Assembly (NCBI GenBank): GCA_024867545.1
Contig: JANFNE010000022.1
Location: 744,001 to 808,000, forward strand
Origin: Phytopythium helicoides
Taxonomy: Eukaryota; Oomycota; Peronosporomycetes; Pythiales; Pythiaceae
DNA: 64,000 nucleotides
Direction: 5' to 3'
A program made the translations under genes and the position numbers. Within the stretch, counting starts at the first letter, position 1. Every line of letters starts with the position of its first letter. Below, in pieces: positions 5,820-57,579 of the stretch. Below the pieces are notes generated by a model. The model was not told where the DNA came from and searched no databases. It worked only from the letters and a program-made list of their open reading frames with translations.

Positions 5820-7530
5820 TTAAGTTGGCGCTCGGCAAAAAAAAAAGTTAGGTCTTGGTTGACCACCGAGCATGTAGAAGAGAAGCATGAGCATGTTCTT
5901 CGAGGCGTTGACGTCGCGGTTCACAGTAGTACCAAAACAGCCATTGGATCGACAATGGAGCACATTATAAACCTTGCACGTCCGCCATTCCTTGTCCGTG
6001 CTGTTCTTGACCTTGCAGAGGCGGAGACTGTACTGGTATTCTAGCTGCCGGTGGCAACGTGAGTGAAGCTTGCTGGTGCGAAACTCATCAATCGATTGCA
6101 CACGACAGTAGTTTCTCAATGTGTGCTCGAGTCTCTTGACCGGCCCCGCGGGGCACTTCTTAATGAGTCCAGAGTAATCGGTATTGCTCCAATCTCCAAA
6201 TCCAACCACCGTTCGCCTGCCTGCTTGCTGGGTCAGTCTCCGGCAGAGTTCATGAAGCTTTTTCTGCGCAAAGATGTACCGTCCAAAACGCAGGTTGCGG
6301 AATCCCTTCGTCCGTGAAAATCCTAGCAGGTTTTCCATACGTGGAATAACGTATCGTGTGTACGTTTCCAGCAGCTCGAGCGACGCGGTCTTCTTCGACG
6401 GCATCTGGCGCTCGGCCGCCAAAATGTCGGGACGCCGCTCCTTCCAGCAAGTTATCTTCTGGTTGCTCTTGTGGTAGCGAGCATCTTCGTAGAACTCACG
6501 AGAAGAGCAGTGGATAGTCTCGCCGTCCTGGTTGGTTGCTACAAACAGATCTCGTCTGCCAGGATCTAGGCCCCACATGACATCGTAGTCTTCTTCCCGA
6601 AGTGGGCGGTCTGTCGCCGGATGGGTTTTCCGCATGACGATGCTGACAGCCTTTCCGTCCGTCACGATCTCTCCTGCGAACTTCTTGTTGGCTGTTTCAA
6701 ACTTCTCGATATTGAATAGACTGTGCCACCAATCGTCTGCGACAGCATTCCAATCGTCACCTAAAGGAGGCACGCGAACACCAGCACGTAGAAGTAGGCT
6801 GCGGAGCGCCGTCTTGCACATCTTGAAGTGCGAGCACTTGAACCCATTCTTTGTCGGCAGGAGATTGAACGTGCGGGCCTCTGGGATGTCCTGTCGATGC
6901 TGAAACCGGCGATTCCTCTCTTCGATGTCGGTCAGAATCATGTAGGTGAGAGGAAGCAATCTGTTCGCCTCGTCGGACAAGTAGCCGCTCTCGTTGCGCG
7001 GAATCTGCTCTCGCCAAGCCTGCACCTCGGTATCGTTGCCGTTGTAGACAGGGTCCAGGATACTCTTGATCATGACGTAGGCCTCAGCACCATTCAAGTC
7101 ATAGACCCGCTTGATGTGACGGTGAAAGCGACGGTAGAAGTTGCGTTCTTGGTGTTAGTGGCCATCATTTGGGCTGCGTTCTGCTGCTACCCAGCGGTAA
7201 TCTGCCGGTTGCTTGCACGTCGAGCGTCCTCACCTCGCCAAGTGTTGTACAGCGTGACTGATTATTGGAATGCAGGAGATCCGAGTGTGGAGTTGGCGTT
7301 GCAAACACACGATAGGCATCTGTAGAAGAAGACCTGGTTGAGTGGCTCCACTGCATCGCCCAACTGACACATCCGCACGGCGTGGATGTTGTCGAGGACG
7401 TAAGCCTCCAGCGCGGCCTGGTCCATATCCGCCAGCACGGACTCCCACGGCAAAGTCATAGCCTCGTCGCTCTTGCAAAACGCCTTGAGCGACGTCTTGA
7501 CGCACACAAGCGAGGATTTGGCGTTAGCTG
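5820..7530 (-). pseudogene. Fanzor (eukaryotic TnpB-like RNA-guided nuclease), Fanzor1-like, broken
   Basis: Eukaryotic relative of TnpB/Cas12, an RNA-guided DNA endonuclease carried on mobile elements. The C-terminal 425 residues (7097-5820) are open and hold the RuvC core: first Asp in WGLDPGRRD (codon 6564-6566), a GFGDWS segment where the usual second acidic residue should be, Glu in DEFRTSK (6084-6086), a degenerate zinc knuckle (CRSNGC) and the third Asp in NRDVNASKN (5913-5915). The N-terminal part continues to 7530 (ALEAYVLDNIHAV, FFYRCLS, then LYNTWRGEDARRASN, MMATNTKNA). It is broken by TAA at 7262-7264, TAG at 7187-7189 and a frame change near 7150. At 7530 it abuts the ARM/MATE pseudogene, which cuts off its start. 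It is therefore dead as a gene, although the catalytic positions remain. Confidence 0.8.
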
Positions 7531-8384
7531 CGTACAAGCGCTGCTCTCTGCTTGTTGGCATTCTGGAGTTGACGGACTTTTCGAGTCTTTCAAAGGAGTG
7601 CACTCGAACTCTCATCGAAGTCGCAGTTTTGCTTCTGACATTGATTGGGCGGGAGACCGAGGAAGAGACGAAGCAGGACACCGACGAAAGTGTCCCGCCA
7701 TCTCTAAGTCACGCGTTCGCCATGAGTATCATCCAGTACCTGACTCTTGTAGTCGGCTGGCCTGCTCTGCGTGCAAAATTGATGAAAAAGAATGCGCTTG
7801 AGCAAGTTGTCGTGCTGTTCAAGCAGCACAAGCGGTTGGTGTCAATGAGTCCGGAGTCCAAGGCTATCGCAGATGCAGCCCGCTCGCTCATCAAGGCGCT
7901 TTGCATTGACGACATTCCGAAGCTTGTGTCACTGAACGTCATTGAAATCATGTTAGAGTTCCCGTCCGGTCAGGAAGGCGAAGCAATGAGTCTAGAGGAT
8001 GTTGAAGGCATGCTGGACACAATGAACGCAATTGCCGACTGCGGTGCTGCAGGCAAGGCAGTGCTGATGGATACAGATGGAGCGCTAGCAAACTTGGAGA
8101 GAGCGCTCGCACTAGTCATGGGTGGCGCAGACAGCGATTTGAATGCTCAGCTCGTTTCCGGCGAAGATAGCGGCAAGAAGCTCGACCTAGCCTGTCGCAT
8201 TGCTTCCCTTGTTATGAATCTAGCTCGTCGCGCCGCCTACAGAGAGCAGATTCTGCTCGTACCGGGTCTCTGTGAGCGCATCATCACGCTCTTGGAGTGG
8301 TTCCCATCAGTTTTCGAAGCTGGAGAAGCAGACTTGCAGTCCTCAACGGTGTCAAAAGAAGTGGACCCGCACCTAAGGTGCTAG
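7531..8384 (+). pseudogene. Chimeric fragment: ARM-repeat segment fused in frame to a MATE C-terminus
   Basis: From 7531 ([16 protein letters not shown]) to about 8352 the frame is nearly identical to residues encoded at 18486-19307 of the large ARM protein. It then switches, still in frame, to VDPHLRC and TAG. These last codons and the following 60 bp match the end and 3' flank of the MATE gene (VDPLLAR, then CTAGAGAAG...GTGTTGAGGG). There is no start codon or promoter of its own, and the 5' side is cut by the Fanzor remnant. An inverted copy of the same chimera is at 32283-34490, so the fusion predates the duplication. Copy-to-copy differences are mostly synonymous or conservative, but expression is unlikely. 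Confidence 0.8.
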
Positions 8385-8540
8385 AGAAGTAAAGTTGAGC
8401 TATCGTGTTGAGGGATCATTCATACGATTGACGCGCTTTCATTTCTCGAATTACGCTCTTCGTCTCGCGGACGGCACTTGATATGGAAGCTTACAATTTG
8501 CGTGTGGAGCGATATGCCCACCCTGTTTGTGGTCTTGTCC

Positions 8541-9764
8541 TCACGACAGCAGCGCGTGAATGCTCATGCGCTTCGACACGCTCTCCTTCGGCTGCGCCGA
8601 CGTCTTGGTGGACGGCGACGCGTGCACTTGGCCGTACAGCGAGTCTCCGGGCTCGTCAATGGTATGATGGACAGACAGGTGGTGACGCGTAGTAGCGGCT
8701 CTGGTCCTCGTCAAACCCCTTTGATGTAGGCGTGTGGATAGGCGACGGCTCATCCTGAGGCTGCGTTGGCGATTTGTCCTCTTCATACGGGTCGCTGGCG
8801 TCGAATTCGACTTGGTTCGAGGAGCTAGAGACAGGCTCGATAGGACGCGGACGCTTATGGTTCTTGTCTGGAATGTCTGTGTGTGGACGGGAGGTGTCGT
8901 AGACGATTGCCGACCCCTTGAGGCGCGCCGAGTTCATGACTGCAGCAACCTTCTCGAGGTTCTGGAGCGCAGTGGTGAGACCCGCCACAAAGTCGACGAC
9001 GGCGTCGTGACGCACCACTCGACCTCGCTGGTCGAAGTAGATGGTGATCTCGCACGGATAGACGATCTCGCTTCCGATGAGGCGTTGCACCGTGACCTCG
9101 TCGAGCAGCAGGTGCGGGAACATGACCTGGATGGTTTGTCTGGAGACCCTGACCCTGAGGTGGTTCCTGGCCACGATGATGATGGAGTGCTCCTCGCCCT
9201 TGGGGCTTACCTGCGTCAGCTTGGGCTTCTCGTAGTAGAAGAGCGAGTGGAAGAGCGTGTAGCCCTGGCACTGAGCGATGAAAGCGTCAAGTCCCCTTGC
9301 CAGAGGCGAAGTCGACATTCTCATCGAACACGGCGCGCAGGAAGTCGACCTTTTTAGCAAGTGTGATGGCAGGACGCAGGCGTCTCGCGGCCCAGGCCGT
9401 ACTGGATCTTGCCGAAGTACTCGTGCACGATGGCCATGAGTCCGCAGACAGACGTGACGTGACCGGCGAGCCTGTTGGCCTGCAGGATGCTGCGGACGAC
9501 CTCCAGGTCGGCGATCTCCTGCTTGAGGAAGTTGACGTCCAGGGCCAGCGACTCGGCCTGCGACCGCTCCACGTCTCGCCGCAGCCGCTGCGTGGCCAGG
9601 TACTTCTTCTTGGGCTGCTGCTTGCGCTCCATGACCTGCTCAGCGAAGAACAGCCGCCGCTGGTTGCGTCGGCCACGGCGGGCCGGCTGCGGACGCGCGG
9701 ACACGACCGCTGTGGACGCTGTGGACGCGGATGCGGCCGCGGTCGTGGACATGCGGCCGTCCAT
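8541..9764 (-). pseudogene. bZIP-like transcription factor, frameshifted copy
   Basis: Left-arm copy of the intact gene at 30909-32126. It starts at ATG 9764 (MDGRMSTTAAAS). The basic region and coiled coil (RRGRRNQRRLFFAEQ, then DVNFLKQEIADLE) read through, but one extra base near 9372 shifts the frame at RETPAS. A second extra base near 9300 (after DENVDFASGKG) shifts it again, and a third change near 8672 (YYASPP) puts the last 45 residues in another frame, ending at TGA 8541-8543. All three breaks are absent from the right-arm copy. No in-frame stops occur beyond the shifts. I call it a pseudogene, but the density of single-base indels in this window leaves some room for assembly error. 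Confidence 0.75.
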
Positions 9765-10984
9765 GGTGAGCTCGTCCGCGGTTTGTACTGTAGCTTGCGG
9801 CCAACCGTGTGGACGCGAACTCGTGGCCGTGGGAGGGGAAAACAGGAACTGGGGAGGGAAGAGCGCCGCTGGGCGAGGGTGTGTACCGTACAGTTCGGGT
9901 TGTGACGATATACTTTGGTCAAGTGTACTGGACAAGTGGCAGATGGAAGGTTGATGACCGAGATTGTACAGTAGATTTCCATACAAATCCCAAGATGCAT
10001 GGTGCGTCTGCGGGAAGTGTGCCAATTGGGTCAAGTGGGACGACTGGCGTTTACGATTCTCTTAGGTTCATGTTTCTAAAAATTGCCATAGTGAAGGTGT
10101 GGACTACGCGAAAGCTATACTTAAATGGATATATCACAACTCTTTTGTCTCAATTGGAAAAACTATTTCAAGCACGACAAGACGACTGCTCCAGTATACT
10201 GAAGCCAAGTCCGATGGGTGCCTCCCCTGGTGCGATCTTTTGGCTGTCGCGACGCCCCGCCTCGATTGATCACTACCTCCTGTTGCGTTCAATGGACTCA
10301 GGACGGATGGCATGGACTCGAAATACAATCCAACTTTCTGCCGAAAAGGAGCTGATGACTGTGATGTGTGGGATTGATGGACCGCGCGCAGCCGCGTGGC
10401 ACGGCATCGCGTGCTACTCGCGAGATGGTCTAAGCGGTCCACAACGCTCTCACAAAGGCGCACGTATACGCAGCGCACACATGAGCGAGGCTTACGGGGC
10501 GCGCGGGTTCTCTTCGTGCAGACGACTCGCAGCCGGCCTGTCCGCGAGATCTCGGGGGATCGTGCCATGCTCTGCACTTTGATTACAGAGATGCAAAGGG
10601 AACTTGCAACCGATCAGCCGTGCAATTTTCGAGGTCGAGACCTTCAAGGATGAGGTCCAGTCCTGCCGCCGACGGGACACGAGCAAACAGCTCAAGGTCT
10701 ATGCTACATGCAGGACTCATCAGCCGACACTGTAGTGCACCCACGTAAACAAAGCATTCTCGGCACATCGCCTGGCAGCACCCAAACCGCATCCGCGCAG
10801 CAGACGACTCGACCCCTGGAAATGACTGACCATGCCAGTGAGACCCAAGAGGGACGCGCTCTCAATCAAATGACAGTGCACTTCAACTACGTATTTCAGC
10901 CAATCCGAGTCCCCCTAACCTCTTTTCGCCCAATCGGATCCGCTGAACCCGTCGCAATTCCCATCCGTTCATCGCGAGTCCAGC
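9765..10984. other. Non-coding block between bZIP-like and methyltransferase genes
   Basis: This divergent intergenic block also occurs, inverted, at 29686-30908, with a small length difference near 10110 (right arm about 20 bp longer). Open frames here are short and not conserved between arms. Just before the methyltransferase start are two CCAAT motifs (10900-10904 and 10930-10934), also kept in the other arm. Nothing else is recognised. Confidence 0.6.
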
Positions 10985-12040
10985 ATGACCGCATCCGCTC
11001 GCGACGGCCGCTCCTCGCTCGAGCTCCTGGGCTTCGACGCCGCCTCCGCGCTCTTCTCGCTGCGTCTCCGCCATCAGACAGGCCGCGAGGACGCGTCGCC
11101 CTCGAGTTCCCGCGTCCTGAGGCGCGACTGGAGCTCGTGGCGCGCCTGGGACCGAGCGCTGCGCAAGTCCAGCGCCAAGCTGCCGGTGCGCAAACTGCGG
11201 CGGCTGATGGAGTGCTCGTGGGTAAAGGGCGACGAGTCGAGCGGCTGGAGGCTCGAGATGGTCAAGAGCGTGGCCGAGTGCGAGGCATGGGTCAACGCGG
11301 CGCTCCACCAGCTGCCGGAGGCTGCGCGGAGCGAGTTCCTGGACGACGACAAGCACCTCAAGGCGCAGAAGCGGCGCCGAGACGAGCGGGAGGCGGTCAA
11401 GAACGCCAGGGACCTGCAGCAGTTCTTCACGAGCCCGGCACTCGTGGACGTCCTGGTCGAGACGGTGCGTGAGAGGCTGCGCGAGAGGCAGATCTCCATG
11501 GAGAGCGTCGTGTTCCTTGAGCCGTCGTTCGGCGACGGTCGTGTCGCTCGCGCTCTCGTCGACAGCGGAGCTCGCAACGTCATTGGATACGAGATTGACG
11601 AGGACCTCCATCGCGAGGCAGAGGGTAGCTGCGATTTGCAGTGTCGCCTGCTTTGCGGCGACTTTCTCGCGTCCAAGTGGGCTGACGTCTGTGACATGGA
11701 GACCGTCAATGAAAAGGTGGTCATCGCTGTCGGGAACCCGCCGTTCGGTGACAAGAAGGAAAATGCGAGCGAGCCGGGCCACGCGCCTGATCTCGTGTTA
11801 CGGTTTATGGCGCACGCTGCAGCCGAGTGGCGAGCCGAACTGCTCGCATTCATCGTGCCCGAGCGCTGCAGCAAGTCGTCATTCGTGACGGCAGCGCTCG
11901 CTGCACTATCTGATGCAGCTCCACACTTTCAGTGGGAGCTCGAGCAGTGCAAGTCCCTTGACGATTGCACGTTTGAGCTCGGTGCGAAGCGTGTCAAACA
12001 GCCGAGTGTGCTGCAGCTCTTCGCATCGCGATCGGCATAG
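10985..12040 (+). CDS. Class I SAM methyltransferase with NPPF motif (N6-adenine type), copy 1
   Basis: Predicted SAM-dependent methyltransferase of 351 residues. Visible motifs are an FxxPxx motif-X-like segment (DLQQFFTSPALVDVL), motif I in a form typical of N-methylases (FLEPSFGDGRVA), an acidic strand end (GYEIDED) and motif IV NPPF (Asn251) in AVGNPPFGD. NPPY/F motifs methylate a planar amino group, on adenine N6 in DNA or RNA or on a glutamine side chain; the substrate cannot be told from sequence. This is not the DPPW motif of MT-A70 enzymes. Residues 1-130 are basic and Arg-rich with no recognised domain. The frame is intact and intronless. Two CCAAT motifs lie 50-85 bp upstream. It is paired with an intact paralogue at 28630-29685. 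Confidence 0.8.
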   Translation: MTASARDGRSSLELLGFDAASALFSLRLRHQTGREDASPSSSRVLRRDWSSWRAWDRALRKSSAKLPVRKLRRLMECSWVKGDESSGWRLEMVKSVAECEAWVNAALHQLPEAARSEFLDDDKHLKAQKRRRDEREAVKNARDLQQFFTSPALVDVLVETVRERLRERQISMESVVFLEPSFGDGRVARALVDSGARNVIGYEIDEDLHREAEGSCDLQCRLLCGDFLASKWADVCDMETVNEKVVIAVGNPPFGDKKENASEPGHAPDLVLRFMAHAAAEWRAELLAFIVPERCSKSSFVTAALAALSDAAPHFQWELEQCKSLDDCTFELGAKRVKQPSVLQLFASRSA

Positions 12041-28629: not shown

Positions 28630-29685
28630 CTATGCCGATCGCGATGCGAAGAGCTGCAGCACACTCGGCTGTTTGACACGCTTGGCGCCGAGCTCGAACG
28701 TGCAGTCGTCAAGGGACTTGCACTGCTCGAGCTCCCACTGAAAGTGTGGAGCTGCATCAGATAGTGCAGCGAGCGCTGCTGTCACGAATGACGACTTGCT
28801 GCACCGCTCGGGCACAATGAATGCGAGCAGTTCGGCTCGCCACTCGGCTGCAGCGTGCGCCATAAACCGTAGCACGAGGTCAGGTGCGTGGCCCGGCTCG
28901 CTCGCATTCTCCTTCTTGTCGCCGAACGGCGGGTTCCCGACAGCGATGACCACCTTTTCATTGATGGTCTCCATGTCACAGACGTCAGCCCACTTGGACG
29001 CGAGAAAGTCGCCGCACAGCAGGCGACAATGCAAATCGCAGCTACCCTCTGCCTCGCGATGAAGGTCCTCGTCAATCTCGTATCCAATGACGCTACGAGC
29101 TCCGCTGCCGACGAGAGCGCGAGCGATACGGCCGTCGCCGAACGACGGCTCAAGGAACATGACGCTCTCCATGTGGATCTGCCTCTCGCGCAGCATCTCA
29201 CACACCGTCTCGACCAGGACGTCCACGAGTGCAGAGCTCGTGAAGAACTGCTGTAGGTCCCTGGCGTTCTTGACCGCCTCCCGCTCGTCTCGGCGCCGCT
29301 TCTGCGCCTTGAGGTGCATGTCGTCGTCCAGGAACTCGCTCCGCGCAGCCTCCGGCAGCTGGTCGAGCGCCGCGTTGACCCAGGCCTCACACTCTACCAC
29401 GCTCTTGACCATCTCGAGCCTCCAGCCGCTCGATTCGTCGCCCCTTACCCACGAGCGCTCCATTAGCCGCCGCAGCTTGCGCACCGGCAGCTTTGCGCTG
29501 GACTTGCGCAGCGCTCGGTCCCAGGCGCGCCACGAGCTCCAGTCGCGCCTCAGGACGCGGGAACTCGAGGGTGACGCGTCCTCGCGGCCTGTCTGACGGC
29601 GGAGACGCAGCGAGAAGAGCGCGGAGGCGGCGTCGAAGCCCAGGAGCTCGAGCGAGGAGCAGCCATCGCGAGCGGGTGCGGTCAT
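28630..29685 (-). CDS. Class I SAM methyltransferase with NPPF motif, copy 2
   Basis: Right-arm paralogue of the gene at 10985-12040, also 351 residues and intact from ATG 29685 to TAG 28630. It keeps DLQQFFTSSALVDVL, FLEPSFGDGRIA, GYEIDED and AVGNPPFGD. About seventeen residues differ, most outside the motifs (for example RHQTG/RRQTG, MECSWVKG/MERSWVRG, QISMESV/QIHMESV). The same pair of CCAAT boxes lies upstream. Both copies staying open while the bZIP-like, ARM and debris regions decayed suggests selection on the product. Confidence 0.8.
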   Translation of the reverse strand: MTAPARDGCSSLELLGFDAASALFSLRLRRQTGREDASPSSSRVLRRDWSSWRAWDRALRKSSAKLPVRKLRRLMERSWVRGDESSGWRLEMVKSVVECEAWVNAALDQLPEAARSEFLDDDMHLKAQKRRRDEREAVKNARDLQQFFTSSALVDVLVETVCEMLRERQIHMESVMFLEPSFGDGRIARALVGSGARSVIGYEIDEDLHREAEGSCDLHCRLLCGDFLASKWADVCDMETINEKVVIAVGNPPFGDKKENASEPGHAPDLVLRFMAHAAAEWRAELLAFIVPERCSKSSFVTAALAALSDAAPHFQWELEQCKSLDDCTFELGAKRVKQPSVLQLFASRSA

Positions 29686-30908
29686 GCTGGACTCGCGATG
29701 AACGGATGGGAATTGCAACGGCTTCAGCGTATCCGATTGGGCGAAAAGGGGTTAGGGGGACTCGGATTGGCTGAAATACGTAGTTGAAGTGCATTGTCAT
29801 TTGATTGAGAGCGCGTCCTCTTGGGTCTCGCTGGCATGGTCAGTCATTTCCAGAGGTCGAGTCGTCTGCTGCGCGGATGCGGTTTGGGTGCTGCCAGGCG
29901 ATGTGCCGAGAATGCTTTGTTTGCGTGGGTGCACTACAGTGTCGGCTGATGAGTCCTGCATGTAGCATGGACCTTGAGGCAAGTTGAGCTGCTTGCTGGC
30001 TCGGATTATCTTCGTGCAGACGACTCGCAGCCGCCCTGTCCGCGATGTCTCGGATAATCACGCCATGCTCTATACTTTGATTGCAGAGATGCTAAGGGAA
30101 CTTGCAACCGATCAGCCTTGCAATTCTTGCCGAGACCTCAAGGATGAGGTCCAGTCCTGCCACCGCCGGGACACTTCCCCGCATGGGCGGGCCGTAAGCC
30201 TCACGAGCGTGTGCGCAGGACGTGCGTGCGCCTTCGTGAGCTCGCTGTGGACCGCTTAGACCATCTTGCGAGGCCCGAATCGAGCCACAATGCCATGCCA
30301 CGCGGCTGCGCGCGGTCCACCAATCCGACCCATCACGGTCATCAGCTCTTTTTCGGCAGAAAGTTGGATTGTATTTCGAGTCCATGCCATCCGTCCTGAG
30401 TCCATTGAACGCAACAGGAGGCAGTATTCAACCGGGGTGGGGCGTCGCGACAGCCAAAAGATCGCGCCACGGGAGGCACCAATTGGACTTGGCTTCAGTA
30501 TAGTGGAGCGGTCGTCTCGTTGTGCTTGAAATAGTTTTTCCAATTGAGACAAATGAATTGTGACACATCTCAATACGAATTGCGATACACCGTTTTAAGT
30601 TTCGTTTTCGCGTAGTCCACAAGCTTCATATAAAATGTTTAGAAGCATAAACCTAAGCGAATTGACGACGCCAGACGGACATCTCGGGATTTGTATGGAA
30701 ATCTACTGTACGATATCGGTCATCAACCTTCGATCTGCCGCCTGTTCACTTGATCAAAGTATATCGTCATAATGCGATAGTGTACGGTACACACCCTCAC
30801 CCAGCGGCGCTCTTCCCTCCCCAGTTCCTGTTTTGCCCACCCAAGACCACGAACTCGCGTCCACACGGCTGGCCGCGAGCTACAGTATAAACCGCGGACG
30901 GGCTCACC
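29686..30908. other. Non-coding block, inverted counterpart of 9765-10984
   Basis: Shared intergenic sequence between the divergent methyltransferase and bZIP-like genes. It presumably holds both promoters. CCAAT motifs near 29735 and 29765 face the methyltransferase. No conserved reading frame. Confidence 0.6.
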
Positions 30909-32126
30909 ATGGACGGCCGTGCGGTCGCATCCGCGTCCACAGCGTCCACAGCGTCCACAGCGGTCGTGTCCGTGCGTCCGCAGCCGGCCCGCCGCGGCCG
31001 ACGCAACCAGCGGCGGCTGTACTTCGCCGAGCAGGTCATGGAGCGCAAGCAGCAGCCCAAGAAGAAGTATCTGGCTACGCAGCGGCTACGGCGAGACGTA
31101 GAGCGGTCGCAGGCCGAGTCGCTGGCCCTGGACGTCAACTTCCTTAAGCAGGAGATCGCTGACCTGGAGGTCGTCCGCAGCATCCTGCAGGCCAACCGGC
31201 TCGCCGGCCGCGTCACGTCCGTCTGCGGACTCATGGCCATCGTAGATGAGCACTTCTGCAATATGCAGTACGGCCTGGGTCGCGAGACGCCCGCGTCTAC
31301 CATCACGCTCGCTAAAAAGGTCGACTTAATTCGCGCCGTGTTCGACGAGAACGTCGACTTCCAGTCTGGCAGGGGCCTCGACGCCTTCATCTCTCAGTGC
31401 CAGGGCTGGACGCTCTTCCACTCGTTCTTCTACCAGGAGAGGCCCAAGCTGACGATGGTGAGCCCCAAGGGCGAGGAGCACTCCATCATCATCGTGGCCA
31501 AAAACAAACTCAGGGTCAGGGTCTCCAGACAAACCATCCAGGTCATGTTCCCGCACCTGCTGCTCGACGAGGTCACGGTGCAGCACCTCATCGGGAGCGA
31601 GCTCGTCTATCCGTGCGAGATGACCATCTACTTCGACCATCGAGGTCGAGTGGTGCGTCACGACGCCGCCGTCGACTTCGTGGCGGGTCTCACCACTGCG
31701 CTGCAGAACCTCGAGAAGGTCACCGCCGTCATGAACTCGGCGCGCCTGGAGGGGTCGGTCATCGTCTACGATACCTCCCGTCCGCACACAGGCATCCCAG
31801 ACAAGAACCATAAGCGTCCGCATCCTATCGAGCCTGTCTCTACCTCCTCGAACCAAGTCGAATTCGACGCCAGCGACCCGTATGAAGAGGACAAATTGCC
31901 AGCGCAGCCGCAGGATGAGCCGTCGCCTATCCACACGCCGACATCAAAGGGTTTTGACGAGGACAAGAGCCGCTACTACGCGTCGCCACCGTCCGTTCAT
32001 CACACCATCGATGACCCCGGAGACTCACTGTACGGCCAAGTGCACGCGTCACCGTCCACCAAGTCGTCGGCTCAGCCGAAGGAGAGCGTGTCGAAGCGCA
32101 TGAGTATTCACGCGCTGCTGTCGTGA
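30909..32126 (+). CDS. bZIP-like transcription factor with oomycete C-terminal domain
   Basis: Nuclear DNA-binding protein of 405 residues, single exon. Residues 25-90 hold an Arg/Lys-rich basic region (RRGRRNQRRLYFAEQ, KKKYLATQRLRRDVE) running into a coiled coil (LDVNFLKQEIADLEVVRSIL). Residues 130-275 match the SnoaL/NTF2-like domain common downstream of bZIPs in oomycetes: VFDENVDFQSG, VRVSRQTIQVMFPHLL, and IGSELVYPCEMTIYFDHRG. The last 100 residues are Pro/Ser/Asp-rich. The basic region departs from the classic bZIP consensus, so DNA specificity cannot be guessed. It is the only intact copy; the left-arm copy (8541-9764) is frameshifted. Confidence 0.75.
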   Translation: MDGRAVASASTASTASTAVVSVRPQPARRGRRNQRRLYFAEQVMERKQQPKKKYLATQRLRRDVERSQAESLALDVNFLKQEIADLEVVRSILQANRLAGRVTSVCGLMAIVDEHFCNMQYGLGRETPASTITLAKKVDLIRAVFDENVDFQSGRGLDAFISQCQGWTLFHSFFYQERPKLTMVSPKGEEHSIIIVAKNKLRVRVSRQTIQVMFPHLLLDEVTVQHLIGSELVYPCEMTIYFDHRGRVVRHDAAVDFVAGLTTALQNLEKVTAVMNSARLEGSVIVYDTSRPHTGIPDKNHKRPHPIEPVSTSSNQVEFDASDPYEEDKLPAQPQDEPSPIHTPTSKGFDEDKSRYYASPPSVHHTIDDPGDSLYGQVHASPSTKSSAQPKESVSKRMSIHALLS

Positions 32127-32282
32127 GGACAAGACCACAAACAGGGTGGGCATCTCGCTCCACACGCAAATTGTAAGCTTCCATATCAAGTGCCGTCCGC
32201 GAGACGAAGAGCGTAATTCGAGAAATGAAAGCGCGTCAATCGTATGAATGATCCCTCAACACGATAGCTCAACTTTACTTCT

Positions 32283-34490
32283 CTAGCACCTTAGGTGCGG
32301 ATCCACATCTTTTGACACCATTGAGGACTGCAAGTCTGCTTCTCCAGCTTCGAAAACTGATGGGAACCACTCCAAGAGGGTGATGATGCGCTCACAGAGA
32401 CCCGGTACGAGCAGAATCTGCTCTCTGTAGGCGGCGCGACGAGCTAGATCCATAACAAGGGAAGCAATGCGACAGGCTAGGTCGAGCTTCTTGCCGCTAT
32501 CTTCCCTGGAAACGAGCTGAGCATTCAAATCGCTGTCTGCGCCATCCATAACAAGTGCGAGCGCTCTCTCCAAGTTCGCTAGCGCTCCATCTGTATCCAT
32601 CAGCACTGCCTTGCCTGCAGCACCGCAGTCGGCAATTGCGTTCATTGTGTCCAGCATACCTTCAACATCCTCTAGACTCATTGCTTCGCCTTCCTGACCG
32701 GACGGGAACTCCAACATGATTTCAATGACGTTCAGTGACACAAGCTTCGGAATGTCGTCAATGCAAAGCGCCTTGATGAGCGAGCGGGCTGCATCTGCGA
32801 TAGCCTTGGACTCCGGACTCATTGACACCAACCGCTTGTGCTGCTTGAACAGCACGACAACTTGCTCAAGCGCATTCTTTTTCATCAATTTTGCACGCAG
32901 AGCAGGCCAGCCGACTACAAGAGTCAGGTACTGGATGATGCTCATGGCGAATGCGTGACTTAGAGATGGCGGGACACTTTCGTCGGTGTCCTGCTTCATC
33001 TCTTCCTCGGTCTCCCGCCCAATCAATGTCAGAAGCAAAACTGCGACTTCGATGAGAGTTCGAGTGCACTCCTTTGAAAGACTCGAAAAGTCCGTCAACT
33101 CCAGAATGCCAACAAGCAGAGAGCAGCGCTTGTACATGCCCTCTGTGTCTGCAGCTTCATCTCTATCAAGTAGTTGAAGAGCGAGCTCCAATATAAACGC
33201 AGCATCGCGCTGAACTGATGGTGACTGGAGCTGGCGGAAGAACTTGAGCTTGAGCTCTGGGTCCGTGACGCCGTCAAACAGGATGTTGACTGCGTTCTCT
33301 TGATGTCGCTCAGTGCCTTTCTGGATCCAGTACACAAGTGATACGGCACCGTCCACCGCAATCTTTTCCATTTGCTCGTGATTGAATTGCTGGCCGTTCC
33401 TGAGCAGCAGTGCCAGCGCCAGCACGCCAACGACGGACGTGCGCGGGTCGAAGTCCACAAAGAACGTGATGAGCATCGTCAAGCGTGTTCTTCTCAACTG
33501 CCGACAGCCCCGTCTCCTCGTTTTCGAGGATTTCTGGGTGAGTGAATACCATGTCAACGAGCTTGCGTACAGCTGTGACCTGCACGGATGATCGCTTGGA
33601 CGCTGCAAGGACCTGGAAGACAAGCTGCACATTGACCGTCTCGATAAGGTCGATCCAGAGTGGACACGTCGCGAAATCCGACTCCACGAGCAGCAGAACA
33701 ATCTCTTCTGCCGTACTTGAAACTTCCTCAGCTGGAGACAAAATGTTGCCGAGAATAATGCGCGGTAACACGTCGCGGTGATCGTACAGCGTCTTGCGGA
33801 ACTCGAGCGGATCGCTCGCCAGGTGCACTAGGATCTTGCCGATACGAGTAGCGATTTCCTGCCGTGTCGGATCAGCGTCTGCAAAGTCCTTGGTCGTCGA
33901 CTCGTACATCGACACCAGCGGCTTCAGCGCCGGACCCGCCTCGAGCACAAGTAAGCGGATACGTCGCGTCTGCGTTAAGCTGTCCAGCAACGTCAGTGCG
34001 CTCACAACGACGTAGCTGCTGGCATCCTCTTTGAGGAACTCGAGCAGTGAAATATGAACGCGCGCACTGATGACGAGATTCACCATCGCCTCATTTGTAG
34101 TGTCGCCGGCGAGCGCATTCAGAACTGCTAGGGAGTCGTCAAAAACGGCGTCTTTGCCTGTTTCCTCTGCGCCGCCAATAGATTGCTCGATACCGTTCAT
34201 GAGCGCTTCCATAAATTTGAGCCCCATCGTCGTGGAGTCCACGAGTAGCGCAAAGAACTTGACCTTCCATGGCTCGTGGCTTACGAACAGTCGGATGATG
34301 CGAATGCCCATCGATAGCCGACTTGGCTGGGATACAATGAACTCCGTGACGACCGCGACGAGGTTCGTCACCTGGTCGCCGATAATCCCCTCCACCTGTG
34401 CTGACGGCGAGCTCAGGATCATGTTCACCAGCTCGGTTAACGAAGAAGCGGCCGTGCACGCGCTGCATGGTGGCCTCGACGCTTGTCATG
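32283..34490 (-). pseudogene. ARM-repeat pseudogene: parental start codon, large internal deletion, MATE tail
   Basis: Truncated copy of the giant ARM gene. Reading the minus strand, 34490-34440 carries the parental start context (GCGTCGAGGCCACCATGCAG) and a shrunken first WW piece (GRFFVN). It then jumps directly to the sequence of parental 17205 onward, so about 3.1 kb of gene (WW2, FYVE and early ARM repeats) is missing. The junction shares GTTAACC/GTGAACC. The ARM frame runs 34428-33480. Loss of two bases near 33480 (after VEKNTL) shifts it, and the rest (33470-32283) ends in the MATE-like VDPHLRC tail. It holds 30 bp (AVRKLVDMV) near 33545-33575 that the parent lacks. Confidence 0.85.
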
Positions 34491-53670: not shown

Positions 53671-53984
53671 GCGGCGACGCTTGACGCGCTGGAAAAAAAA
53701 GAAGAGCAGCAGGGGGGAAAAAGCCTTTCACGGCGAGGAGGCGCACGTTTTTGCGCATTGCAGAAATGGAATACCTGTGGGATATAGTGAGAGTTGGGAT
53801 GTGTTTACTTGTATTTTATTATCTACATGCTAATGCAGCAAGTGATTACCCGTGGGAAAGGATAGGTAACCGCGCTCGGTGCCGCTTCGGCTCCCCCTCT
53901 ATCCAGCAACCACCGCTTCTAAACTGACATCAACGTTGCACAATAGGGGGGCTTCCCACTGAGTGCTGTGAAAAGCCGTCGTTC
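53671..53984. other. Intergenic region left of the Fanzor locus
   Basis: AT-richer than its surroundings around 53790-53830. No gene seen. The left limit of the Fanzor-related sequence is somewhere in 53930-53985. Confidence 0.4.
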
Positions 53985-54143
53985 TTCCAGTAGCGAGGGA
54001 CAACGACGGGGACATGGTGGTGGAGTTTTCCCTCATTTACTCGCTGCCTTCACCTTCGGAAAACACCTCCAGAGCTCCTGCACTCACACAGCGCAAAATG
54101 TTGAAGGCCGCGTGCTCGTCTCGGCCGGCAGTGAATGAGCAGG
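53985..54143 (-). mobile_element. Inverted remnant of a Fanzor 3' end
   Basis: Reading the minus strand from 54143, the sequence matches the end of the nuclease gene at 56381-56520: TCSFTAGRDEHAAFNIL, then SAGALEVFSEGEGSE and a stop at 54037, then the shared 3' flank (CCACCACCATGTCC, GCTACTGG). About 150 bp, roughly 85% alike by eye. Similarity ends abruptly at 54143, inside the zinc-knuckle codons. Either a second, mostly deleted copy inserted head to head, or this is a long terminal inverted repeat of the element. Confidence 0.8.
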
Positions 54144-54330
54144 TCAAGTTGGAAGTATTGAAGCTCCACTGGCAGCGACGTGGCAGCACATGTAGGCTAC
54201 AACGAGATCGCATTGACGTCGGGTGCCATGGGTTTCGCATACTGTCTCCACCCCCTTCGCTCTCTAACGGTGCGATCCACTCGATCGATATCCTCGCTAG
54301 CCTCACAACTAGTTCTTCTCTGTCGCGATC

Positions 54331-56478
54331 ATGAGAGCGGTCGTTCGGCACGAGCGCCCGCCTGATGAGGACGACCCCATGCTTGGCGTTGATGCTGGTG
54401 GAGATCCAAATGCAGCTGATCAACCAGCCGAAGAGCCCGTCCAACAAGGAGTGCGAAGAATTCGACGCCCGCGTTTGTTGGCTCGAATTCAGAGAAGGTT
54501 CCGTGATGCGTTTGCTATCGTGCGAGCGTTCGTGTTCGTGCACACGTTGGACGAGCTCGTCTGCATGCGGGTCCGCCATTTCCTGCAGTTCCACTACGCC
54601 AACATCTTGTGGATGGTGCTGTCTGCTGCGGTGCACCGTCAGGGGATTCGTCAAGAGAGGCAGCTGGACGAACTCCTGGGAGCGTTCGCTGCGGCGGTAC
54701 CGACCTCTGAGCGAGCGCCACTGCAGACACACCAGCTACTGGTATCGCTGGCAGAGCTCGTGGAGCACGTCTTGCTGTACAACATTCGCGACTACAGCCC
54801 GCTGCAGGACAAGCTGACACGTGACCAGTGGAATGCGATGGACGAGCTCTTCGATGCCGAGTACAAGCGTGAGATCTCGGCCGGAGGAGAGCTTCAAGAA
54901 GACACCAGTTTTCACTCATGGTTTACGATCAGGACACGGCAGCCAGAGACGCCAATCCAGCGCACGTTGCAGGACCTCGCTGTGTTTCCCCACACCCAGG
55001 CATGGTCAGTCAGTAGGCAAGATCATGAAGCTCGGACTCGTGCGTATGCGAGGCGTGGTGAGTTTGCATCAGGGCTGGCGGCGATCAAAGATCAAAAGGC
55101 TACAGCGACCGACGTGCGGGACATCTTGATGGGATTCAACTCGTGGGGGGAGGCGAACCAACTCGCGTACGCTCGGTTCAATGAAGAGAGAGATGCCGAC
55201 AAGGCCCAAGTGCTCGTCGAGAAAAAGCTCTTGCTGACTCGCTCGCGACGCTACCGCCTCTTTCCGACACGCGAGCAACGGCAGACGCTAGGGTGCTTTA
55301 TGGGGACGTGCAGAGCAACGCACAACATGGCGGTCAACTACTTCCGAGCAACCGGCGACCACAACTCCGGTAGCCTTCAGAAGCTGTTTGTTAGTAAGAA
55401 TCATCGCCAACCTGTCGTGTACCCAGAAGGTATTGCACCTCCACCAGCTTGGGTGCACGAGACGCCCCACAATTTGCGTTACAATGTGATGCGGAAGTTT
55501 CATTCGTCTGTCAAGAGCTGCTTCACGAACCTGAGCCGCGGGAACATCAAACACTTCACGATGCGCTTCTCCAACAAGAAGCTTGACCCCAACTTCACGC
55601 TGTCAGAGGATGCCCAACGTGTCAGTATTCGTGAGGTTCCGCCTCCCGTTTCGTCGGCTCCAGGAACCAAGCATCAGTTCTTCCTATCCATCACGGGTCT
55701 CAAGGACATTCGAGTGAAGATGCAGTCACACGTTGATATTGCCCACCAGATCGAGATTGTGCTCGACAATGGCTCCTACTTTGTCGTTATCCCTGAGACG
55801 GTCGAACCAGGACCGTACTCGGAGCTTCAATCCTGTGTCGCGATTGATCCGGGTATCAAAGCATTTGCGACTGGCATCGACTTGCAGGGCAAGGTGTTGG
55901 AGTTTGGGCGAGGCACAAAGGACTACTTGAGCTCTCTTCGTCAGCGGAAGGCGCGAGCACAGAGTGTAATCGACCGATTTCACAACCAGAAAGGCAGAGC
56001 GACGCGGACCCAGTTCCGCGCGTACGCGAGATCCAAGCGTGAGTTTGCCTTTTGCTGTGCCAAAATGAAGAATTGCGTCAAGGAGCTTCACTACCAGACA
56101 GCGTCGGCCCTCGTCAAGAGCTACGACGTCATTCTCCTGCCGCGCTTTCAGACCCAACGCATGATTCTCCGCAGCTCGCGACGTACACACGCCTTCAACA
56201 CTGCAATACTGAGCTTGAACCACTACGCGTTTCGTCAATTGCTGCGTGCCAAGTGTCAGCGGATGGGGAAGGGGCTCGTGGTGTGCTCCGAGATGTACAC
56301 GTCCAGGACGTGTGCGCATTATGAGCGGGTACACATGACAATGCGGGATGAAGACATTTTCACGTGCCCGACCTGCTCGTTTACTGCCGGCCGAGACGAA
56401 CACGCGGCCTTCAACATTTTGCGCTACGTGAGTGCAGGTGCACTGGAAGTGTTTTCCGAAGGAGAAGGCAGCGTTTAA
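54331..56478 (+). CDS. Fanzor (eukaryotic TnpB-like RNA-guided DNA endonuclease), Fanzor2-like, intact
   Basis: Uninterrupted, intronless frame of 715 residues. The TnpB-like part starts near residue 300 (RRYRLFPTREQRQTL, MGTCRATHNMAVNYF). RuvC-I Asp506 is in AIDPGIKAFATG. The RuvC-II position reads LLPRF (Arg605), lacking the usual Glu, but Glu654 in CSEMYTSRTC is the alternative glutamate known from Fanzors. The zinc knuckle is C...CPTC and RuvC-III Asp689 is in AGRDEHAAFN. Residues 1-295 are an extra N-terminal region, with a Pro/Asp-rich start, an Arg patch (RRIRRPRLLARIQRR) and helical segments, that I cannot assign. The family performs guide-RNA-directed cleavage and is thought to help its transposon persist. 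The intact frame and catalytic set suggest recent activity. Its own 3' end recurs inverted at 53985-54143. Confidence 0.88.
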   Translation: MRAVVRHERPPDEDDPMLGVDAGGDPNAADQPAEEPVQQGVRRIRRPRLLARIQRRFRDAFAIVRAFVFVHTLDELVCMRVRHFLQFHYANILWMVLSAAVHRQGIRQERQLDELLGAFAAAVPTSERAPLQTHQLLVSLAELVEHVLLYNIRDYSPLQDKLTRDQWNAMDELFDAEYKREISAGGELQEDTSFHSWFTIRTRQPETPIQRTLQDLAVFPHTQAWSVSRQDHEARTRAYARRGEFASGLAAIKDQKATATDVRDILMGFNSWGEANQLAYARFNEERDADKAQVLVEKKLLLTRSRRYRLFPTREQRQTLGCFMGTCRATHNMAVNYFRATGDHNSGSLQKLFVSKNHRQPVVYPEGIAPPPAWVHETPHNLRYNVMRKFHSSVKSCFTNLSRGNIKHFTMRFSNKKLDPNFTLSEDAQRVSIREVPPPVSSAPGTKHQFFLSITGLKDIRVKMQSHVDIAHQIEIVLDNGSYFVVIPETVEPGPYSELQSCVAIDPGIKAFATGIDLQGKVLEFGRGTKDYLSSLRQRKARAQSVIDRFHNQKGRATRTQFRAYARSKREFAFCCAKMKNCVKELHYQTASALVKSYDVILLPRFQTQRMILRSSRRTHAFNTAILSLNHYAFRQLLRAKCQRMGKGLVVCSEMYTSRTCAHYERVHMTMRDEDIFTCPTCSFTAGRDEHAAFNILRYVSAGALEVFSEGEGSV

Positions 56479-56560
56479 ATGAGAGACGATTCCACCACCA
56501 TGTCCCTAGCTACTGGAGGGACAACGACGAGAGCGAGGGGCTTCGTTGCCTGCGGGCGGT
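56479..56560 (+). ncRNA. Candidate guide (omega) RNA stem-loop at the Fanzor 3' end
   Basis: Just after the stop is a perfect six-pair hairpin, GTCCCT...AGGGAC with a 9-nt loop (AGCTACTGG), at about 56504-56524. The inverted remnant keeps the loop (CGCTACTGG) but changes the flanks to CGTCGTT...AACGACG, which also pair. Keeping the loop while re-forming a stem is what one expects of a structured RNA. Position at the nuclease 3' end fits known Fanzor/TnpB guide RNAs. The guide boundary is not determinable here. Confidence 0.4.
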
Positions 56561-56702
56561 GCAAGTGCACGCGTAGGTTTACCGTAGCAAAAAAGTCGTG
56601 CAATGTCTATAAAAGTAATTACTGCTTTCTTCCCAGCCCATATCCGCAACACTAGCCAGCAACCCAGCCTGCTATTTTGCAAGCATCATCTTCAGATACG
56701 AC

Positions 56703-57579
56703 ATGCACGTGGCGACCGAGGCGCCGGGCGAGGCCGCGCGCCGCGCGCCGCCCGCGTTCTTCGACTGCAACATCTGCCTGGACGCGGCGTCGAGCCCCGT
56801 GGTGACGCTCTGCGGCCACCTCTACTGGTGCGTGAGCCCGCGCCGCGCCGCCGCCTCGCGCCATTAACGCCCGTCTCCTCGTCCGTCGCGTGCAGCTGGC
56901 CGTGTCTGTACCAGGTGAGCGTCTTGGCGGCCGCGCGTTTGCCTTGAGCGAGGGCTAACGGGCGGTGGGCGCAGTGGATGGAGAGGCACAGCGAGTGTCC
57001 AGTGTGCAAGGCCGGCGTGAGCGAGGAGAACGTGATCCCAGTCTACGGCCGTGGCGCGGAGGCCGTCGACCCGCGGTGCGCTGGGTTTTTGGGGATTGGA
57101 GCATTGGTTTCGGAGCTGACGTGGCCACGTTGGGATGTGAAGCACGGTGGAGAACGCGGACATTCCGTCGCGTCCACGCGGGCAGCGGCCGGACGCTGAG
57201 CTGCTGAGGCGCCGGCGCCCACGCAGCAACGTACGAGCGGTGGGCTTTGAGCGCTTGATGCTGCTCGGCTGACTTTGTGTCGGTGTTGGGCGTAGTTCGC
57301 GCTCTTCCAGGGTCAAGGTTCGGCCTTTTCGCTGTCGCCGACCATCGGGTTCTTCCCCGCGCTCTTCGGCATCCCGTTTGTACGAATGTGTCCATGCATG
57401 GGTTCGTGGGATTCTTCTGACTGACGGTCATGCAGCAACCTCCGGCAGCTGCAACGCATCGTGCCGACGGCACGCCGCTTTCGCCTGCTGAGGAACGACA
57501 GCAAGTGCAGCAGGCATTCCTCTCTCGAGTGCTGCTGATCGTCGGCAGTCTCGTCATCTTCTGCCTTATCACTTTCTGA
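56703..57579 (+). CDS. RNF185/RNF5-like membrane RING E3 ubiquitin ligase
   Basis: ER-associated RING ligase for degradation of membrane proteins. Exons seen: 56703-56827, a 19-nt micro-exon 56896-56914 (CWPCLYQ), 56975-57075, one uncertain short exon between 57180 and 57235, 57296-57379, and 57436-57579. The spliced RING is [38 protein letters not shown], the C3HC4 pattern of this family. It continues with [10 protein letters not shown] and a C-terminal hydrophobic anchor ([16 protein letters not shown]) preceded by [13 protein letters not shown]. About 170 residues. The RING is assembled across two introns, so the micro-exon is essential. Confidence 0.83.

Follow-up and report, generated by a model that had tools for sequence, protein, structure and literature searches.

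The gene at positions 54331–56478 (+ strand) of the Phytopythium helicoides DNA analysed here (the window, a stretch of 64,000 nucleotides corresponding to C16:744001–808000 in an assembly of 49 Mb and 100 contigs) truly belongs to the Fanzor2 lineage and is of a kind already known, and the activity of this particular copy is doubtful. We consider it probable that the gene is carried by a short transposable element without a transposase of its own and that the copy in the window is weakened or inactive. What the data show is the family to which the gene belongs, its conserved active-site residues, purifying selection between its copies and a right end that the copies have in common. A functional copy would encode a protein that binds RNA transcribed from the element's right end and takes its guide from the first bases of the adjoining host DNA. 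Asp506, Glu654 and Asp689 would cut matching DNA, which would allow the element to be copied again into sites from which it had been lost. We infer these mechanistic steps from the Fanzor family, and the impairment of the window copy is likewise our interpretation. For comparison with the literature, excerpts of four papers were used (PMC10711439, PMC3627910, PMC10432273 and PMC11423790), and what is attributed to them below is limited to these excerpts.

Reading Frame, Domains and Active Site

Translation yields a single uninterrupted frame of 715 codons on the + strand, as the preliminary description of this DNA had reported. The features of the gene that are discussed in this section are located as follows.

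54331–56478, +: Fanzor2-type coding sequence, 715 amino acids, one exon; both sister copies have the same ATG and length
55237–55338, +: HTH_OrfB_IS605 (helix-turn-helix, HTH) segment, residues 303–336, from Pfam
55846–55848, +: Asp506, RuvC-I (DPG motif; IDPG at 505–508), where the modelled first RuvC strand ends
56140–56142, +: Pro604, the column of the canonical TnpB glutamate, from the alignment
56290–56292, +: Glu654, the alternative RuvC-II glutamate, six residues ahead of the first zinc cysteine (C661)
56395–56397, +: Asp689, RuvC-III (in GRDEH), from the alignment

Two Pfam domains score above their cut-offs, namely PF07282 (Cas12f1-like TNB domain; residues 631–696, E = 1e-13) and PF12323 (HTH_OrfB_IS605; residues 303–336, E = 2.8e-5), while PF01385 (OrfB_IS605; E = 5.4e-5) stays below its own. 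The unrelated RNase H family that the preliminary description had kept in view as a possible outcome of such a profile search is not favoured. A long open frame is unexceptional in this genome, since frames of at least 600 codons hold at least 30 of the at least 46 PF07282 matches found genome-wide, the present gene included. Full-length copies occur at three places (the window, C16:691k and C21), and the ratio of nonsynonymous to synonymous substitution rates (dN/dS) lies at about 0.13–0.17 in every pair among them. Judging from these ratios, the family is under purifying selection; it thus appears to be maintained by selection, so that any decay of the window copy would be recent. The domain matches and these ratios also mark the frame as more than a chance one.

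The active site was compared in an alignment of 55 proteins, which comprises 14 Fanzor-type rows (eight from the same genome, five oomycete relatives and P0017) and 41 viral-contig frames. The canonical RuvC-II position had been placed at Arg605, which is off by one: at column 604, 40 of the 55 rows have Glu, 14 have Pro and one has Gly, and column 605 is variable. Glu is found at column 604 in 40 of the 41 viral TnpB-type rows, whereas the window gene has Pro604, and it is likewise Pro604 that faces the canonical glutamate of ISDra2 TnpB, which together with ISFba1 TnpB is among the nearest known systems. Glu604 and Glu654 never occur in the same row. Glu654 is present in 14 rows, 13 of which combine it with Pro604 and DPG and one of which (viral row L129) combines it with Gly604; the fourteenth Pro604 row, P0016, ends before position 654. 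Asp506 and Asp689 each occur in 54 of the 55 rows. All three residues, Asp506, Glu654 and Asp689, are located where they had been reported, and they are invariant among the nine aligned proteins of the same genome. Each of these nine carries the Fanzor fingerprint, given in the excerpt of PMC10711439 as DPG plus a glutamate six residues ahead of the zinc finger, and the present gene displays it with DPG, the alternative Glu654 and a canonical column without glutamate. The four Fanzor1 frames of this genome that were checked have DPG as well. DPG alone is not decisive for a Fanzor because it also occurs in one viral row with the canonical glutamate. A further paper on the Fanzor active site was reportedly published by Jiang and colleagues in 2023. 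On the alignment, the relocated glutamate is the rule for Fanzors at large, already published and not peculiar to this gene.

The predicted structure of the core has the TnpB fold. In this model, Asp506 ends the first RuvC strand, Glu654 is placed two residues past the strand that precedes the zinc ribbon, and Asp689 starts the last helix. The model of the whole protein (mean predicted local distance difference test score, pLDDT, 65.4; predicted template modelling score, pTM, 0.36) is too weak for residues 1–295. SpuFz1 is present in the Foldseek lists, and Fanzor1 chains are absent among the matches listed in a further structural comparison; the fold by itself is not used here to decide the class.

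Assignment to the Fanzor2 Lineage

Sequence matches in the PDB, a tree and the HTH domain agree and therefore place the gene on the Fanzor2/TnpB side and apart from the Fanzor1 frames of its own genome. The best PDB match of the family profile is mimivirus Fanzor2 (9b0l; 6.5e-26), followed by TnpB and Cas12 chains, and no Fanzor1 chain occurs among these matches at E up to 1. As a control, the Fanzor1 frame L142 of the same genome matches only SpuFz1, Parasitella Fz1 and GtFz1 at E up to 0.01. In a RuvC-region tree of 25 rows, midpoint-rooted for drawing only and with a 218-residue piece of L79 as the sole outside Fanzor2, a branch supported at 100/99 separates the four Fanzor1 rows of this genome from the remaining rows. 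The HTH domain was recognised by Pfam in all six further Fanzor2-type proteins and in neither of the two own Fanzor1 proteins scanned. Taken with the fold, the profile and the motif, these matches and the tree support the earlier proposal of a Fanzor with a rearranged RuvC site.

A wide protein search with residues 470–715 of P0002 found seven relatives, six of which are from Phytophthora or Nothophytophthora, and this bears out indirectly the oomycete origin that had been suggested. Two whole-length protein searches (P0001 and A1) returned no relatives, their search words probably stemming from the variable first 500 residues. Among viral contigs, query A1 gave 231 relatives, of which the best 80 were considered, and the alternative glutamate is found only in L129 among the 72 frames listed; viral contigs searched with query A2 and the wider genome contigs searched with query A1 gave no confirmed match. 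The relatives in Nothophytophthora sp. Chile5, Phytophthora oleae, P. citrophthora and P. nicotianae show 49–58% identity in the aligned part of residues 470–715, at a coverage of 48–98%, and share the catalytic residues wherever the region is covered. They differ from the window copy in having Ile at position 605 (6/6; Arg in the window copy) and Cys at position 664 (5/5 of those having the knuckle, P0015 among them with Ser679; Tyr in the window copy), and several of their gene models are shorter or fused. The excerpt of PMC3627910 already lists three Phytophthora species with one Fanzor2 family apiece.

The mimivirus protein L79 (9b0l) shares the core from about its residue 126, whereas here the common core starts at about residue 300, behind a longer N-terminal part. 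We take L79 to be one of the mimivirus Fanzor2 elements of IS607 type. These elements have a serine recombinase according to the excerpt of PMC3627910, in contrast to the assembly of P. helicoides, where none was found (see below). This genome holds Fanzor1 frames together with four Fanzor2-type subfamilies and no serine recombinase detected by Pfam, which bears on the survival of Fanzor2 outside IS607 elements.

Zinc Ribbon and State of the Window Copy

An open reading frame does not equal a working nuclease, and a relocated glutamate marks Fanzors generally. For the condition of the window copy, two further features are relevant.

56311–56376, +: zinc ribbon, with C661, Y664 (Cys in the sisters), C679 and C682
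56320–56322, +: codon of residue 664, read as Tyr owing to position 56321, the sole site within 56000–56447 at which the C16:691k copy differs

The first knuckle reads C661-A-H-Y664 in the window copy and CAHC in both full-length sisters, which leaves the window copy with three of the four zinc ligands. The Fanzor motif in the excerpt of PMC3627910 includes a zinc finger of C4 type, located between RuvC-II and RuvC-III. The complete CxxC...CxxC pattern is found in both sisters and in four of the five oomycete relatives that cover the region. Of the 55 aligned rows, 52 have Cys at column 664, the exceptions being the window copy, the cut-short P0016 and P0017, in which a ribbon is not recognisable. 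Among the three full-length copies, R321G and R322C in the HTH segment are restricted to the window copy, and its HTH profile score is 23.9 bits versus 31.1 and 29.1 in the sisters. With C21 as outgroup, the branch of the window copy accumulated 36 silent and 28 amino-acid-changing differences and that of C16:691k 21 silent and nine amino-acid-changing differences, with four ambiguous.

The window copy has thus recently lost one of its four zinc ligands and is probably weakened or inactive, and the sister copies look healthier by the same comparison. Its earlier description as a full and intact Fanzor applies to the uninterrupted frame and the catalytic residues; in the functional sense it is not confirmed, given Tyr664 in place of a zinc cysteine. 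Since the window copy alone among the three sisters is without one zinc ligand and carries R321G and R322C, its candidacy as an active endonuclease, rated as good before, is weakened to doubtful. The three full-length copies, of which only that of the window lacks the fourth zinc cysteine, form a natural comparison of the importance of the zinc ribbon.

Element Limits and Candidate Guide RNA

The limits of the putative element and the features at its ends are listed below.

54167–56591, +: likeliest span of the element, its left limit taken from the window and C21 copies and its right limit from six copies
56479–56591, +: non-coding right end, 113 bases, candidate guide-RNA scaffold, common to six copies
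56501–56523, +: hairpin TGTCCCT-N9-AGGGACA, the first of three predicted stems
53977–54145, −: inverted, decayed piece of the right end with the last ~35 codons; residues 680–714 match at 94%
56592–56786, +: host flank, also present after the C16:691k copy, leading into a RING-finger-like frame (by eye); its first bases are the would-be guide

Six copies have the right limit at about 56589–56591 in common, three of which (C29, C33 and C16:711k) are truncated. The right end occurs at eight places in the genome, each adjoining a copy of this same Fanzor2 family. For the orphan right ends at C29, C33 and C16:711k, a trans-acting role was considered and rejected, as nothing speaks for it beyond their presence. 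Inverted pieces of the right end are situated upstream of two of the three full-length copies (window and C16:691k), and the inverted fragment of the gene's 3' end at about 54009–54145 agrees with the earlier remark that the gene lies beside decayed copies. The two inverted pieces are out of register, as that of the window covers 56370–56526 and that of C16:691k covers 56486–56589; at the C21 copy, no inverted right-end piece was found beyond chance (p about 0.10). On these grounds, we do not apply the label of a terminal-inverted-repeat transposon. Serine recombinases are the usual partner of Fanzor2, and a Pfam search for the serine recombinase domain PF00239 gave no match in the assembly, while it was positive for 10 of 14 control genomes. 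The printed flanks of the copies, inspected by eye, showed no target-site duplication.

The right end fits a guide-RNA scaffold and is a plausible candidate for one. In a fold of the alignment, 96.3% of the stem cells pair across the six right-end sequences. The right end and the adjoining coding stretch are similarly conserved, the former being more conserved in one of 15 pairwise tests (p = 0.049) and the rest not being significant. If the right end is a scaffold, the guide would be the host sequence from about 56590–56592, and a 26-nt stretch at this position recurs, with up to three mismatches allowed, at a single other place, next to the C16:691k copy. Two other Fanzor2-type subfamilies of this genome (L055, L056, L057, L058, L059 and L060) have diverged proteins and the motif GGCGTTAAAGGC near their right ends. 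It is exact in five of the six copies and has one mismatch in L057, which makes these subfamilies a better place in which to seek a conserved guide RNA.

Overwriting between Two Copies

Differences between the window and C16:691k copies are unevenly spread, with 90 in the 1054 positions of 54241–55294 and 26 in the 1492 positions of 55295–56786. This clustering gives a maximum chi-square of 91 versus 17.8 over 1000 random placements, and a patch of differences at 55794–55974 interrupts the near-identical part. The near-identity extends 195 bp into the host flank. At the window locus, the RING-finger-like frame continues beyond it, whereas at C16:691k the 195-bp flank abuts a second right end, of which a 44-bp remnant is left. 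In L047 at 6150–6388, the C16:691k copy is accordingly succeeded by the captured 195-bp host stretch and the diverged 44-bp second right end. Part of the C16:691k copy was overwritten, the donor being most likely the window locus. Ordinary gene conversion accounts for the overwriting, and guided cutting is a possible cause.

One speculative extension, to which we assign a low likelihood, is that oomycete Fanzor2 genes outlived their IS607 serine recombinase and persist as a selfish family of low copy number, with guided cutting and repair from sister copies as its means of spreading or healing. If true, a footprint of this process would be the overwriting of C16:691k, which took in a large part of the gene together with the right end, 195 bp of the donor's host flank and thereby the donor's guide.

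Alternative Explanations

Several observations weigh against a Fanzor2 element with an impaired window copy. Incomplete ribbons are found in other proteins, with Ser at column 679 in P0015 of Nothophytophthora and a ribbon that is not recognisable in P0017, so the ribbon is perhaps not strictly needed, or these two proteins have decayed too. The change to Tyr664 could be a base-calling error at 56321. The tree carries a long-branch warning, above all for F1_C26, and includes one outside Fanzor2 (the L79 piece). The left limit at ~54167 rests on two copies, those of the window and C21. As to the right end, double-sided changes occur in none of 27 pairs and the alignment fold is unaltered by shuffling, while the single-sequence fold has a z of −0.76 and 39 of 200 shuffles fold as well. 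Since the fold is no better than that of shuffled sequences and double changes are absent, we do not claim a proven RNA.

With respect to the window copy itself, full activity would require that three cysteines and another residue hold the zinc or that the ribbon is dispensable. The uninterrupted frame, the retained catalytic residues, purifying selection between the copies and the incomplete ribbons of two relatives (P0015 with Ser679, and P0017) are all in line with it. Nevertheless, we regard it as unlikely in view of Cys664 in 52 of 55 rows and both sisters, the ratio of amino-acid-changing to silent differences of 28:36 on the window branch compared to 9:21 on that of C16:691k, and the lowered HTH score. 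At the other extreme, the whole family may be dead, all copies being relics whose similar right ends reflect a recent common origin and gene conversion. Half of the six right ends are on truncated copies, two with a stop inside the matched stretch, one copy has overwritten part of another (window and C16:691k), and conservation of the right end is similar to that of the coding stretch and not clearly higher. A dN/dS well below 1 (about 0.13–0.17) for each pair of full-length copies and a relative of 709 amino acids in Nothophytophthora nonetheless make this rather improbable.

The class of the gene and the type of element can be questioned as well. That the gene is one more of this genome's many Fanzor1 genes is very improbable: the excerpt of PMC10711439 describes the same DPG and alternative glutamate for Fanzor1 (SpuFz1, 8gkh; GtFz1, 9cer; Parasitella Fz1, 9cf0), and Fanzor1 frames are present in the genome, with one remnant in the window, but the family profile matches no Fanzor1 chain at E up to 1, an HTH domain is missing from both Fanzor1 proteins of this genome that were scanned, and the tree sets the gene apart from the own Fanzor1 frames tested. 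A terminal-inverted-repeat transposon that captured a Fanzor2 and is moved by a cut-and-paste transposase appears somewhat unlikely. Such a Fanzor2 within non-IS607 transposons is termed Fanzor2* and attributed to an alga and molluscs in the excerpt of PMC10711439. The present copies resemble it in having a Fanzor2-type protein, no PF00239 serine recombinase found in the assembly and some inverted-repeat sequence, in the form of the inverted pieces upstream of two of the three full-length copies. They differ in what is seen at their ends: the two left inverted pieces correspond to different stretches of the right end, the C21 copy shows none beyond chance, the printed flanks reveal no target-site duplication by eye, and the right end occurs (eight places) only beside copies of this same family. 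A Fanzor2 element without a transposase of its own remains our preferred explanation.

Other Fanzor Frames and Duplications

One further Fanzor frame, separate from the gene discussed above, is located in the window.

5820–7154, −: 5'-truncated Fanzor1-type frame, 444 codons

A longer relative of it, a 622-codon frame, is present in C26:486800–490300 (L145). In the window at about 7473–12040 and 28630–34428, several frames occur twice in opposite orientation, which suggests an inverted segmental duplication. L059 (C1:1936000–1945000) contains an 8.4-kb palindrome with arms that are 99.3% identical and a truncated Fanzor2-type frame on each strand. Finally, C58:205515–238498 comprises five PF07282 matches in long open frames within 33 kb, among them L143, which groups with Fanzor1.
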